A stretch of DNA of 37,866 bases from a virus, in IMG/VR virus record IMGVR_UViG_3300036985_007005, positions 1 through 37,866 of that record. One strand, 5' to 3'. Position numbers and translations under genes: made by a program. Numbering within the stretch: position 1 is the stretch's first letter; every line of letters begins with the position of its first letter. Below are positions 22,030-31,456 of this stretch, piece by piece. The notes beneath the pieces are model-generated. The model was not told the origin of the DNA and did not search any database. It saw only the letters and a program-made list of their open reading frames with translations.

Positions 22030-22690
22030 TTACGCTTTTGTGCAACGTAAGTTCAATACCCATGCATCATTCAAGATACGTGGACATTCTGCGAACTTGT
22101 AACCAACAGACGCATTCAATGCAAGGGGTCCGTCATATATTGGTGGACGATAGATAAATCTTGCGGAATACCTATCTTGCTCAATCACAGCATAAGCTTC
22201 CATACCTACACAGAAAATGTTGTAGATATCAGCATGATTGATGCCAGATGATGTAGGAGTTGTACTGCCGATTGAAGAAACCAGGAAACGTAAGTTCCCA
22301 ATCGAGCCCCACTCTGATCTGAGCGCATTAATTGGAGCAGGATATTGTGCCTTGGAGATAAATCCTTGGACAGAATCAAGATCGCCAATCAATTTTGAGT
22401 TTGCTAATGCAAAATAAGCATCGCGAACAGGAGCAGATCCGAACTTGTTCTCACCTTCAATGTAGTCAGCAATCATGGCTGCGTTGGCGTTAACCAAAGT
22501 AGCAACTGCTGTATCAACATCTGAACGTGTCAGTTCAGTTGGGCTATCGCCATTTACTCCGCCTGTGCAATCGATAAACGATGCAGTTGAGGCAAGCATA
22601 TCGCGGGTAAGCTCATCTTCTGTTTGACGAAGAGATACGCCGAGCCGGGCCGCTGCCTCGTTCAAGACAGGGTCTTGACTTGTCAATGCG
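22030..22690 (-). CDS. Major capsid protein, exon 3 (C-terminal 220 residues)
   Basis: This exon begins after the group I intron and, joined to the 26-nt micro-exon and exon 1, gives a 316-residue protein of the N4-gp56 coat family. Recognisable blocks are LTSQDPVLNEAAARLGVSLR, FIDCTGGVNGDSPTELTRSD, EGENKFGSAPVRDAYFALAN, a Y-x-x-F-x-x-GMEAYAVIEQD stretch and VGYKFAECPRILNDAWVLNL at the end. Without splicing the frame could only start at TTG 22686, which has no good ribosome site, so splicing looks required. It forms the icosahedral shell. Confidence 0.85.
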
Positions 22691-23421
22691 CATTATCTGT
22701 TACTTATTTATGACCAAATAATTTCTATTTGGCGGTAGGTCTTGTTATTCCCTACTCTCTTAGTCTCCTAAAAGATCGGACTGTCGCTTCACCTTGTGGT
22801 GTCCACTCGCCTCAGTCTCTCACGCTAGACATTAATACCTTTCTACGGTACGCTAATTACTATAAACAAAAGGGAAAACATGTTCGATCACGATAAAATT
22901 GTATATTTAGCTGGCATCATCGATGGAGAAGGATCCATCCAAATAGAACTACAGGGAAAAAATCAAAAATGCCGGAAAATAGATTATTTCTCAGTAAGAC
23001 TACTTGTTATAAATACCGATAAACCATTAATAGATTGGATCTGCAATAACTTTGGAGGAAGAATAACTGCGAGAAAGTTAATTGAGAACCGCAGACAATG
23101 TTATAAATGGAACATCTCTTCTTTTAAGGCAGCTGAAATATTAAAAGAGTGCTTACCTTTTATGATAGTTAAAAAACGCCATGCTGAAGTGATTATTGAA
23201 TTCATGGAATCAAAACCTAAAGATATTCATCGAGTATCGCCAGAAGTTCAAGAACATAGAAAACATCTTTATTTTTTGCTTAAAAAAATCAATAAGCATC
23301 AGCTGGATTAACCCTTGCGCCTTGTTTCCCTCGACTTTACGTTAGGGGGTCCAAGTCAATCAGAGCGGATTTAAAGCAGGCCATCTGCTGACAAATCAAG
23401 AATTTCAAAGATATTTTATTA
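22691..23421 (-). ncRNA. Group I self-splicing intron in the major capsid gene
   Basis: P1: exon GAGCAGGU (23429-23422) pairs with the guide GCCUGCUU (23381-23374), eight pairs ending in the U.G at the 5' splice site. P3: CCGCUC (23368-23363) with GAGUGG (22808-22803). P4: UUGGA (23354-23350) with UCCAG (23307-23303) inside an AAUCCAG Q-like element. P7: GACUG (22817-22813) with CAGUC (22783-22779). P8: CACC/GGUG around ACAA at 22801-22790. Splicing after G22691 joins GT|C and restores the frame as EQV-ALTSQDP. The large loop between P4 and P7 (P6 region) holds an endonuclease gene on the other strand. P10 for this intron is weak. Confidence 0.8.
22880..23311 (+). CDS. LAGLIDADG homing endonuclease, antisense inside the intron
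   Basis: A 143-residue protein with one LAGLIDADG motif, YLAGIIDGEGSI, at residues 9-20, then basic beta-alpha stretches (CYKWNISSFKAAEILKECLP, MIVKKRHAEVIIEFMESKP). Single-motif enzymes of this kind act as homodimers and cut intronless alleles to spread the intron. It has its own AAGGG site 6 bases before ATG. It lies opposite to the intron and capsid transcript, and its last codons overlap the complement of the intron's P4/Q element, so each strand constrains the other. An antisense position in a phage group I intron is unusual. Confidence 0.85.
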   Translation: MFDHDKIVYLAGIIDGEGSIQIELQGKNQKCRKIDYFSVRLLVINTDKPLIDWICNNFGGRITARKLIENRRQCYKWNISSFKAAEILKECLPFMIVKKRHAEVIIEFMESKPKDIHRVSPEVQEHRKHLYFLLKKINKHQLD

Positions 23422-23447
23422 ACCTGCTCGTTGATAATTACATAGGT
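23422..23447 (-). CDS. Major capsid protein, 26-nt micro-exon
   Basis: The bases read ACC TAT GTA ATT ATC AAC GAG CAG GT, encoding TYVIINEQV with the last codon completed by the first base of exon 3. This fits the N4-gp56 coat pattern in which Y-G is followed by [TK]YV-x(4)-[EQ]Q-V and then LTSQDPVLNEA. It is bounded by a 34-nt insert on one side and the group I intron on the other. It also lies in part within a hairpin (TTGATAAT 23460-23453 with ATTATCAA 23438-23431). Confidence 0.8.
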
Positions 23448-23481
23448 CATCTATTATCAACTCTTACGGCACCTAACAAAC
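23448..23481 (-). other. 34-nt insert with group I P1/P10 pairings but no core
   Basis: The insert lies between codons for ...AYYG and TYV of the capsid gene, adds 34 bases (not a multiple of 3) and puts a TAG in frame after two codons. Exon UACGGU (23487-23482) pairs with GCCGUA (23470-23465), with U.G at the junction (P1). The adjoining UAGGU (23475-23471) pairs perfectly with the next exon, ACCUA (23447-23443) (P10). The insert ends in G like a group I intron. Candidate explanations are a deleted intron remnant, a mini-intron removed by a core elsewhere, ribosome bypassing, or a split gene restarting at ATG 23450, which has AAGAG 10 bases upstream. Confidence 0.75.
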
Positions 23482-23745
23482 ACCGTAGTAAGCAATCTTC
23501 GCGTCGATATTAATCGCGCTTAACTGTTGCGCAGGAGGTGTAACACCGGTATTTCCCAGTGGTACAGTTGCTGTTGCTAAAGGATTATAGCGACGCATAC
23601 GGAGAGTGTCTCCGCCGCTGGCCGGCATAGTCTTTTTAACAGCAGGGATCTTGTGAATCATGTTAGGCACCGGTACAGACAAAAGCTTATAAGAAAAGCT
23701 TTGCTGCACTGCTGGTGGTAACGTAGAAGTTGTTGTGATTGCCAT
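23482..23745 (-). CDS. Major capsid protein, exon 1 (N-terminal 88 residues)
   Basis: Encodes MAITTTSTLPPAVQQSFSYK to AKIAYYG, the N-terminal arm of an N4-gp56-type coat protein (blocks DTLRMRRYNPLATATVPLGN and GVTPPAQQLSAINIDAKIAY). If the 34-nt insert stays in the message, translation ends two codons later at TAG, giving a 90-residue fragment. The ribosome site is weak (AAGGGTG) and a perfect 9-bp hairpin lies directly upstream. The gene seems to have its own promoter and a structured leader. Confidence 0.85.
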
Positions 23746-28658: not shown

Positions 28659-31241
28659 TTAATACATTCTCGTATCATCTCTAAAGATTGAAGGCATTGA
28701 GCCCTGAGTTCCCCACATAGCCTCATGATAATTCTTCTCAAGCTCTTTCGCAGATAGGCCATCAGCCGTCTTATCAATGGAGATGCATAAGTAGCGTAGG
28801 CTGTCACAAAAATTACTGGCTTTATCATGCAAAGGCCGTGGTTTATACACACCTTTCTTAGAATCGTATTCTTGACGGTAATTCTCGATTGCCTTGATAA
28901 GATTCTTACAATTCCGATCATCTATCCATAAACGAGAGAACGTTGAACGTACGGCTTCTATTCCATCTTCAACAGAGATTTGATCGGCGATCTCAAAACG
29001 AACCCCGAGAGAACGCGCCTTCTCCCATCTTGTAATTCCTGAACCAAGCTCACGGACTCTGATGTCGTGTGGGCCGATGTGTTTGCCGTAGATGTACGGT
29101 TTTGTTTTAAGATAGGAAATGTAGTGCTCCAGTCCCTCTTTATTCTTCTCATATGAGTCGATAATGCGTATTGATTTACCTGAAGTCTGGAAAAAAATGA
29201 TTGCGGTTGTGTCACGGACACCCAAATCCCATGCAGTATGCACAGGGAGAGAACTATCCCATGGCACATTAGATATTTGCCCAGCCAATCTTGCGCGATC
29301 GAGATATTTCGTATAGTAAGAACCCTCGACACCTTTCTCGAAAGACGTCCAGTATTCCTGCATCTGCAAGTCTTCTGACATTTCGCCATTCTCTCTCTCC
29401 TTTAAGATCTCTTCAATGGGGATATGTTTCGTCTCATCCACAGTCAACTTAGAAACAAACCAGTGGGGAGAATTCTTAGCAACTTCATAGAGTTCCCACA
29501 TGAAATTTTTGCCTCGTGGCGTATTGTGAGAAATAAGCCCATTTGAAAAAAAAGAATGAGTTTCTGGTATAACAAAATCATATACGTCAGACTCACTCTC
29601 CGTTATTGATTTAATAGGGGAATAAAAAAAATTCTCCGATAAAAGCAGAGGCAAATATTTATTATGAGGGTTTATATCAATAAGTTTCTTTATTGTTCGT
29701 CTGTTCATTCGAGATGGATTTGTAACAAGCTTCTGAGGAAGAATACAATCCGAAAGTCTACTTACGTCAACAGGATAAATATTTCCTGATTCCTCAGCAC
29801 ATCTTGCAGGAACTTTATCCCAATTCTTTTGTTTACGCTCTAGTCTAAAACCAATGTCTCGATAGAAAACATGCGCAAAATAACCAGTAATTTCTAGATT
29901 ATAAATAGTACTAAATACTTTTACCTTCTTTGTTGGAGCTTTATATTCGCTTCTTACTGATGAACATATTCCAAAGTTAAGAAGAATAACCTGCAAGTCT
30001 TTCATAAAAGGAAGACACGTAGATGTTAGCTTGACATAACCACGCTTTCCTTTCCCAGATGCACTGCAACCATCTCCGTCAAAAAGACCCTGTAAAAAGG
30101 CAACCATTTGCTCTTTAGTACACTGGAATAGAATCTCTGGGAATGTTTTATTTCTCGCCCCATGTTTAAATCCCATAAACTCAAGAATCGCGCATAGTTC
30201 ACGAGAAGAAAATTCATGATGCATTCCGTCAGGTCTCGTTCTAAATCCAAGATCTCTCAAAAATGAGATAATCTCTGGATCTTTTTTCTTTGTTACACAA
30301 ACATTGCTCTTGTTATAGTTTCCATCAGCATGAAAAAGCCCAAGAAAATAGAAAAAATCATGCGAATCAAAGTCAAGGTTAAGCTCATTATAATGCCGGT
30401 TACCGTCTCGCTTGAAACAGAACTGATTCAATACGTCACATCCCTGCCCCCAAACGTTTTGACCGTATTGAATAGGAATAAGGTCGCCTTCTTTAAGATC
30501 ACCAGCCTTAATCCACCCAACTCCATTCCAGATAGGATGAATATGAGTACATTCAAGACTATATCCCGATACAAGCTCTATCTTTAATGTTTTTTGCTTA
30601 CCACCATAATAGAACTGCTCAGCGTTATGAAATCCCGATAAGCCATAGACTTGCTCGTTTAAATCTGAGTATTCGTCTCTACACGAAGACATGTCTTTTA
30701 TCCGCTTAAACCCATGAGTGCCTATAACAAGAGTTTCAGGTGAAACGCACGAGCATATCATGCACCAGCCTTCATTTGCAGAAAGTATGGGGCGTATAAA
30801 CGAATAAGCCATGGGATCAGATATGGCAAACTCAGAGAATACGACCCCTGCTGGGTTAGTTCCTACAAGCGTATTGTTGTAAGAATCAGACCCAATAATC
30901 TGAAACACAGACCCGTTAATGAGCCGTATCCGCATCTGTTGCTCATTGCGTGACTCAATCAAGTCCATAGGCAGATAATCAAGAATACGAAAGCCATCGT
31001 TGTTAATAGCATCCCACAAGATCCGACGCCCTGAAGCAAAGGTTGGGAAGATATAGAAGATTGTTTGTGTTTTTCTTAATAATTCTCGTATGCAAATATT
31101 CCAAGCTGTCAAATCTTTCCCGCTTCTTCTGGGCCAAATAGCCATTATCCGCTTACAGTGCTTGTTTTCGCGTGCATCGAAGAGCGAGAGTTGGTAATCA
31201 CGTGGCTTAAACTTGTTCAGATGGATTGTTTGTTGTTCCAT
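28659..31241 (-). CDS. terL: Large terminase subunit, interrupted by an intein
   Basis: I start at ATG 31241 (MEQQTIHLNKFKPRDYQLSL), which overlaps the preceding stop as TAATG and has GGAAG upstream; the precursor is 860 residues, 451 after intein loss. ATPase: Walker A WPRRSGKD (about 36-43), Walker B VVFSEF (133-138) with the catalytic Glu, coupling motif CS/TPRGKN, which is split by the intein after residue 164. Nuclease: HTAWDLGVRDTTAIIFF and the late block HDKASNFCDSLRYL. The enzyme packages phage DNA into the prohead through the portal. It needs intein removal to rebuild its ATPase. Confidence 0.92.
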   Translation of the reverse strand: MEQQTIHLNKFKPRDYQLSLFDARENKHCKRIMAIWPRRSGKDLTAWNICIRELLRKTQTIFYIFPTFASGRRILWDAINNDGFRILDYLPMDLIESRNEQQMRIRLINGSVFQIIGSDSYNNTLVGTNPAGVVFSEFAISDPMAYSFIRPILSANEGWCMICSCVSPETLVIGTHGFKRIKDMSSCRDEYSDLNEQVYGLSGFHNAEQFYYGGKQKTLKIELVSGYSLECTHIHPIWNGVGWIKAGDLKEGDLIPIQYGQNVWGQGCDVLNQFCFKRDGNRHYNELNLDFDSHDFFYFLGLFHADGNYNKSNVCVTKKKDPEIISFLRDLGFRTRPDGMHHEFSSRELCAILEFMGFKHGARNKTFPEILFQCTKEQMVAFLQGLFDGDGCSASGKGKRGYVKLTSTCLPFMKDLQVILLNFGICSSVRSEYKAPTKKVKVFSTIYNLEITGYFAHVFYRDIGFRLERKQKNWDKVPARCAEESGNIYPVDVSRLSDCILPQKLVTNPSRMNRRTIKKLIDINPHNKYLPLLLSENFFYSPIKSITESESDVYDFVIPETHSFFSNGLISHNTPRGKNFMWELYEVAKNSPHWFVSKLTVDETKHIPIEEILKERENGEMSEDLQMQEYWTSFEKGVEGSYYTKYLDRARLAGQISNVPWDSSLPVHTAWDLGVRDTTAIIFFQTSGKSIRIIDSYEKNKEGLEHYISYLKTKPYIYGKHIGPHDIRVRELGSGITRWEKARSLGVRFEIADQISVEDGIEAVRSTFSRLWIDDRNCKNLIKAIENYRQEYDSKKGVYKPRPLHDKASNFCDSLRYLCISIDKTADGLSAKELEKNYHEAMWGTQGSMPSIFRDDTRMY
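29523..30749 (-). mobile_element. 409-residue intein with LAGLIDADG endonuclease in terL
   Basis: The insert starts CVSPETLVIGTHGFKRIKDM (Cys1, block A), has block B at ECTHIHPIW (TxxH), and two LAGLIDADG-type motifs, YFLGLFHADGNY (about 134-145) and FLQGLFDGDGC (218-228), spaced as in monomeric DOD homing enzymes. It ends DFVIPETHSFFSNGLISHN, with terminal His-Asn, followed by Thr as the +1 residue. All splicing residues are present, so it should be active. It lies at the conserved S/TPRG motif of the terminase, a place where a non-splicing copy would kill packaging. Confidence 0.95.
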
Positions 31242-31456
31242 TATCTTCCACATCCATGGCAATGTAACCCAATCTGCCAATGCTTTAAATAGAACCACCC
31301 AATATCTTGCTTATGTCCACGAGAACAAATGCACCTAAAAAAAGGAGAATTAAACTCGCTCGATATCTTATCTTTTGCTAAAGGATACGGCCCCTCAAGA
31401 ATTGTCCAGGGCCCCCATGTTTTTCCGAGCATTTCTTGAGATTCTAGATGTTCCAT
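31241..31456 (-). CDS. Zinc-ribbon array protein 5 (just before terL)
   Basis: About 71 residues from ATG 31456 (MEHLESQEMLGKTWGPWTIL). It follows the array plan G-x-x-[FW]G-x-W-x-[IV], then FRCICSRGHKQDI, then CHGC near the end: two Cys pairs that could bind one zinc ion. Its stop overlaps the terL start (TAATG), so the two are translationally coupled. The start region (GCATGAATATTGGGAGTTG) is a copy of that of protein 4. Function unknown; coupling hints at a link with packaging or with terminase expression. Confidence 0.7.
   Translation of the reverse strand: MEHLESQEMLGKTWGPWTILEGPYPLAKDKISSEFNSPFFRCICSRGHKQDIGWFYLKHWQIGLHCHGCGR

Follow-up and report, generated by a model that had tools for sequence, protein, structure and literature searches.

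A 34-nt insert in the capsid gene of a virus (IMG/VR record IMGVR_UViG_3300036985_007005; the window is the whole stretch of 37,866 nt that was analyzed) is probably a conserved, non-autonomous group I mini-intron that is excised by the core of the neighboring intron, one core thus serving two introns. Comparison of related sequences makes it highly likely that the insert is spliced as such, and likely that the neighbor's core is used for this splicing.

A short insert at one capsid codon

The capsid gene lies on the minus strand in the order exon 1, 34-nt insert, 26-nt exon 2, 731-nt intron and exon 3:

23482..23745, minus strand: capsid exon 1, 88 codons, ending ..GCT TAC TAC GGT (..AYYG); open reading frame, tblastn to homologues, PHROG 1357 major head protein (E 1.3e-8)
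23448..23481, minus strand: putative core-less mini-intron GTTTGTTAGGTGCCGTAAGAGTTGATAATAGATG, 34 nt, last base G; missing from intronless homologues, 52 distinct counterparts
23422..23447, minus strand: exon 2 ACCTATGTAATTATCAACGAGCAGGT, 26 nt (TYVIINEQ + GT); 26 nt in all relatives bearing the mini-intron
22691..23421, minus strand: complete group I intron, 731 nt, 3′ end ..AAUG; P3, P4, P5 and P7 pairing across relatives
22030..22690, minus strand: capsid exon 3, beginning C GCA TTG ACA at 22690; PHROG 1357 (E 1.1e-16)

The original prediction placed 34 extra bases between AYYG and TYVIINEQV, and intronless homologues bear this out, reading exactly AYYG-TYVIINEQV at the insert position. It also proposed that coat proteins naturally without the TYV stretch would speak against an insert; homologues without introns do carry TYV at that place. 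The flanking coat pieces lie 30 nt apart in intronless homologues (TYVIINEQVA-type). This comparison covers 68 loci with ten codons between the flanking pieces (nine in one of them), and the ten-codon spacing implies that both inserts are extra and that the 26-base exon is genuine coat sequence. Removing both the mini-intron and the full intron from the sequence leaves the coat reading intact.

The insert belongs to a family. Across IMG/VR, 52 distinct insert-plus-exon sequences have an insert at the same capsid codon, in coat genes 41–84% identical to that of the window in the comparable part. A protein-guided initial scan of IMG/VR, blind to the insert, already returned 7 loci with a short insert at this codon; DNA-pattern scans raised the count to 52 distinct sequences, with patterns that skew the sample toward GCC(G/A)UA guides and GAGCAGGU exons. 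Insert lengths are 28–75 nt (median 31; all three length classes; 52 inserts). Every insert has an in-frame stop (52/52), and a full coat protein can therefore be made only if the insert is removed from the message. Equally constant are the terminal G, the ..GGU directly 5′ of the insert and an exact P1 guide (each 52/52). None of the 52 inserts has room for a catalytic core (P3–P9) at these lengths, and without one the insert is not an autonomous member of the group I introns. Four relatives (L180, L203, L206 and L176) have longer P1 loops, with inserts of 52–75 nt, and in L203 and L206 an apparent additional hairpin lies within the P1 loop.

The window is a single metagenome contig, and the original prediction listed assembly error among its readings. 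The chance of such an error is negligible: one independent scan matched 57 contigs from 53 IMG data sets, which refutes that reading. What had been seen in the window stands as an observation and is no isolated case; the widespread family, a third helix (S2, below) and the constant downstream intron lay beyond that first view.

Several searches define the range of the family. Among the relatives, no full-length intron was found at the mini-intron's own site. The search of the collected loci for core-less introns beside other introns of the same family gave nothing beyond chance (2 odd matches, one of them the same coat element, vs. 4 in the reversed control), and the 8 matches of a genome-contig scan, none with a downstream intron, were judged to be chance. 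The named-phage collection held no DNA relative and one remote coat relative (25% identity). Spliced cDNA was sought among intronless contigs, where the exon 1 nearest to that of any mini-intron-bearing contig is only 84% identical; therefore no intronless contig is a spliced copy.

Other mobile elements occur in this genome and in this gene. The terminase large subunit of the window (28662–31298, minus strand) is interrupted in frame by an intein that includes a LAGLIDADG domain (Pfam Intein_splicing, 2.3e-10; LAGLIDADG_3, 3.8e-17), a third mobile element in the genome. At codon 31 of the same coat gene, relatives have very compact group I introns of 208–228 nt (L044 2592–2799, L047 1175–1382, L067 2592–2799 and L072 2572–2799) that end in the same AAGUAACAG..UG motif. 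Coat genes with seemingly three introns (mini, full and a third full intron ~22 nt further on) are seen in L232, L081, L111 and L131, and L054, L055, L056 and L078 have group I introns elsewhere in this gene. The coat gene is an intron hot spot.

Base pairing of the insert with its exons

Three helices join the insert to its flanking exons:

23482..23487, minus strand: P1a exon strand UACGGU, with U.G at the splice site; paired in 52/52, each of 4 exon versions matched by its guide
23465..23470, minus strand: P1a guide strand GCCGUA; covariation across relatives
23471..23475, minus strand: P10a guide UAGGU, partner ACCUA at the start of the small exon; third pair 52/52 and swapped control
23453..23461, minus strand: S2 insert strand GUUGAUAAU; covariation, in the minimum-energy fold
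23430..23438, minus strand: S2 exon strand AUUAUCAAC; covariation, in the minimum-energy fold

P1a (UACGGU/GCCGUA, with U.G), P10a (UAGGU/ACCUA) and the terminal G are all present as first described, whereas S2, in which insert bases 23461–23453 pair with exon bases 23438–23430, had been overlooked. P1a joins the last six bases of exon 1 to the guide of the insert, which matches each of 4 exon versions; altered pairs occur in 6 of the 52 sequences (UAUGGU/GCCAUA, UUCGGU/GCCGAA and UUUGGU/GCCAAA).

P10a is formed by the 5′ flank of the guide and the first bases of the small exon. The third of its pairs involves the third, freely variable base of a Thr codon and is kept in all 52 sequences, as GC, AU, UA and CG. 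Because shuffle-based E-values ignore kinship, changes of pairs were also counted on a tree: on the exon 1 tree this pair is intact in 58/58, and at least 24 changes of it are needed. At least three Watson–Crick pairs form in 50/52 sequences, P10 being short or displaced in a few mini-introns (L130, L144), and the mean run of 4.33 bp falls to 2.64 ± 0.15 when inserts and exons are swapped among sequences. For S2 the same swap gives 5.66 ± 0.19 vs. 8.5. This helix, between the 3′ half of the insert and the small exon, has eight pairs, with 94% of cells paired and five pairs changed on both sides. Taken together over 46 rows, P1a, P10a and S2 have 93.6% of cells paired, and the covariation score of the three helices is 0.322, vs. 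0.095 ± 0.009 in shuffles and no more than 0.064 after one side is shifted. In the minimum-energy fold of the window, P1a, S2 and the P1 of the full intron form three consecutive hairpins; local fold energy alone is modestly better than that of shuffles (z −1.75). A GUAACAG motif that recurs in the mini-intron and at the full intron's 3′ end was set aside as partly a product of the search pattern; behind the guide, the next three bases are variable (ACA 21, ATA 14, others).

These patterns bear on two further readings in the original prediction. According to one, the insert is the dead remnant of a group I intron, and translation restarts at ATG 23450 to give the coat protein as two pieces. 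An ATG does stand just before the small exon in the window, but it does so in only 7/52 sequences; the insert is kept throughout the 52, its signals covary, and compensating changes require selection for base pairing. We regard this reading as highly improbable and abandon it. According to the other, ribosomes hop over the insert. The bypass element of T4 gene 60 is likewise a short gap within a coding sequence, and the capsid insert is a short non-coding gap with hairpins. Unlike the gene 60 element, however, it has group I splice signals and no matched landing codon, as was pointed out at the outset: the take-off GGU is never matched (0/52), the last codon of the insert being GGN in none and NAG, NTG or NCG in all 52. 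Hopping makes no use of P10 or of a terminal G, and insert lengths range from 28 to 75 nt. Bypassing is thus scarcely credible and was rejected.

P10a also argues for the 3′ site in use. It pairs by at least 3 bp with the small exon in 35/37 sequences and with exon 3 in 0/37; it therefore fits the end of the insert as the 3′ site. Alternative splicing from the first 5′ site to the far 3′ site, with the small exon skipped, would have precedents in phage SIOphi and in Twort orf142 (PMC11878797), but this pairing goes against it. The small exon is moreover 26 nt in all cases, so skipping would shift the frame, and its codons are those of intronless homologues. We consider such skipping very unlikely here.

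The neighboring intron and its linkage to the insert

The intron that begins after the small exon has these parts:

23422..23427, minus strand: P1b exon strand GCAGGU; sequence and fold
23376..23381, minus strand: P1b guide strand GCCUGC; sequence and fold
23363..23368, minus strand: P3 5′ strand CCGCUC; 95% of cells paired, 43 core sequences
22803..22808, minus strand: P3 3′ strand GAGUGG; alignment of relatives
22814..22817, minus strand: P7 5′ strand GACU, helix of the G-binding site; alignment of relatives
22779..22782, minus strand: P7 3′ strand AGUC; alignment of relatives
22880..23311, plus strand: LAGLIDADG homing endonuclease gene inside the full intron and antisense to it; Pfam PF00961 (LAGLIDADG_1), E 1.4e-6

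Pairing is maintained with changes across relatives in P3 (95% of cells), P4 (100%), P5 (93%) and P7 (91%), and P1 likewise holds; P8 was 40% paired with a poor column choice and is visible by eye only. Rfam gave no match on the window at the gathering score: RF00028 (Intron_gpI) scored 16.4 bits on the window intron against a cut-off of 50, and 40.1 bits (E 3.7e-7) on the relative L234, under the cut-off as well. The threshold search of the compact relatives L099 and L173 likewise gave no group I match. Since the threshold searches gave nothing, the core was worked out manually and from the alignment, and the low score is a limit of the library rather than a sign of a missing core. Compact versions of the full intron among the relatives measure 227–298 nt, and compact loci with a mini-intron have a full intron of 254 nt or 260 nt, in L176 and L099. 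One relative (L234 13559–14351) has a chimeric intron, in which a different P3–P7 core is framed by the P1 loop and P9 region of a single group I lineage.

Linkage was assessed by a scan that required only the guide of the insert, the start of S2 and the NEQV codons, and demanded nothing downstream. It returned 47 distinct viral inserts, and the P1 of the full intron follows right after the small exon in 47/47; the length of the small exon is the same in every relative with a mini-intron. A scan keyed on the full intron found 16 distinct copies without the insert at the same site, and empty alleles, in which both target sites are present and both elements absent, are common (29 contigs). Three of the four possible states thus exist, and the fourth, a mini-intron alone, was not seen.

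An association of this kind could also arise without dependence. The mini-intron might be spliced by another factor, a ribozyme or protein in trans, and hitch-hike by co-conversion with a homing intron: the two elements are near enough (26 nt), the full intron often carries a homing endonuclease, and such co-conversion could yield linkage by itself. We consider this unlikely. The mini-intron occurs without the intron in 0/47 cases, although intron-only and empty alleles are common; mini-introns persist beside introns too short for an endonuclease gene (254–298 nt; L099, L166 and L176) and beside exchanged cores; and every one of their signals belongs to the group I type, for which a group I core is needed. 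Exchange is seen between L234 and L214, which share the same mini-intron, P1 loop (96%) and 3′ end (88%), with a differing P3–P7 part that Rfam recognizes in L234 as group I (E 3.7e-7). In the tree of cores, presence and absence of the mini-intron are interleaved, and well-supported branches force at least four changes. Mini-introns beside differing cores suggest that the need is for any group I core at that place, and what is required thus appears to be no particular core sequence.

A probable shared core and its meaning

Docking of P1 on a group I core relies on the P1 backbone and the U.G pair and depends little on sequence, and the terminal G is bound in P7. The insert retains the corresponding substrate signals: a P1 hairpin carrying U.G where the 5′ splice site lies, a strand for P10 and a terminal G. 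From these features we infer that a single ribozyme probably takes out both introns. S2 presents the 3′ splice site in its loop and is set against the full intron's P1, which lies immediately downstream. The neighbor's core (P3–P9) would dock P1a first, and exogenous G would cleave after GGU; the terminal G of the insert, held by the S2 loop and P10a, could then enter the G site, releasing the 34 nt and ligating exon 1 to the small exon. The core would then remove itself through its own P1 and 3′ site. This order, with P1a first, is the one we infer; alternatively, the full intron may leave first, its free RNA still being able to act in trans. The original prediction had raised excision in trans by the complete intron 26 bases downstream. 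Comparative evidence favors that idea in substance, and "in cis, by the core of the neighboring intron" is the simpler wording. No conserved P9.0-like contact was found between mini-intron and core.

Parts of this arrangement have counterparts elsewhere. Stripped introns of self-splicing classes that rely on parts from elsewhere occur as the group III introns of Euglena chloroplasts, about 100 nt long and using group II chemistry. The mini-intron resembles them in its putative dependence and differs from them in that they are organellar, follow group II chemistry and have other signals. Group I twintrons and twin-ribozyme introns (Naegleria, Didymium) also place two group I elements at one locus, but nested and each with its own ribozyme; here the elements lie side by side, separated by the 26-nt exon rather than one within the other, with presumably one core for two introns. 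To our knowledge, a dependent mini-intron has not been reported for the group I class, and we found no report of a natural core-less group I intron in the open-access literature. The mini-intron shares P1 with U.G, P10, a terminal G and location in an essential gene with the group I introns of tailed phages (T4 td, Twort, Bastillevirinae; PMC11878797), among which small exons between introns and exon skipping are known; unlike the mini-intron, those introns have their own P3–P9 core. Closest in action are the engineered spliceozymes (Amini et al. 2014, PMC4094466) and trans-excision-splicing ribozymes, in which a group I core removes a core-less internal segment and joins the flanks. They are man-made and carry the guides in the ribozyme, whereas the P1 and P10 guides of the mini-intron lie in the excised segment and its presumed ribozyme is itself an intron 26 nt away.

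A shared core may also explain why the two elements stay together. As only 26 nt separate them, the mini-intron would be co-converted when the full intron homes, and a genome that then lost the full intron precisely would keep, in an essential capsid gene, an insert that could no longer be spliced. With the mini-intron in place, the capsid gene thus likely cannot do without the full intron. Group I introns are generally regarded as autonomous ribozymes. We lean toward the view that these inserts form a natural family of group I introns that are core-less and non-autonomous, share a neighbor's core (four splice sites, one core) and act as RNA-level addiction partners locking in a selfish intron, a hypothesis that predicts the missing state, a mini-intron alone. 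Gene finders split such capsid genes, and the Rfam model misses such introns at its cut-off. Since compact natural versions exist, the dependence is directly testable in a 300-nt RNA. If true, the arrangement would be a natural counterpart of the engineered spliceozymes and a group I parallel to the presumed step from group II introns to dependent introns with a shared catalyst, and it suggests a way for a selfish intron to become hard to lose.
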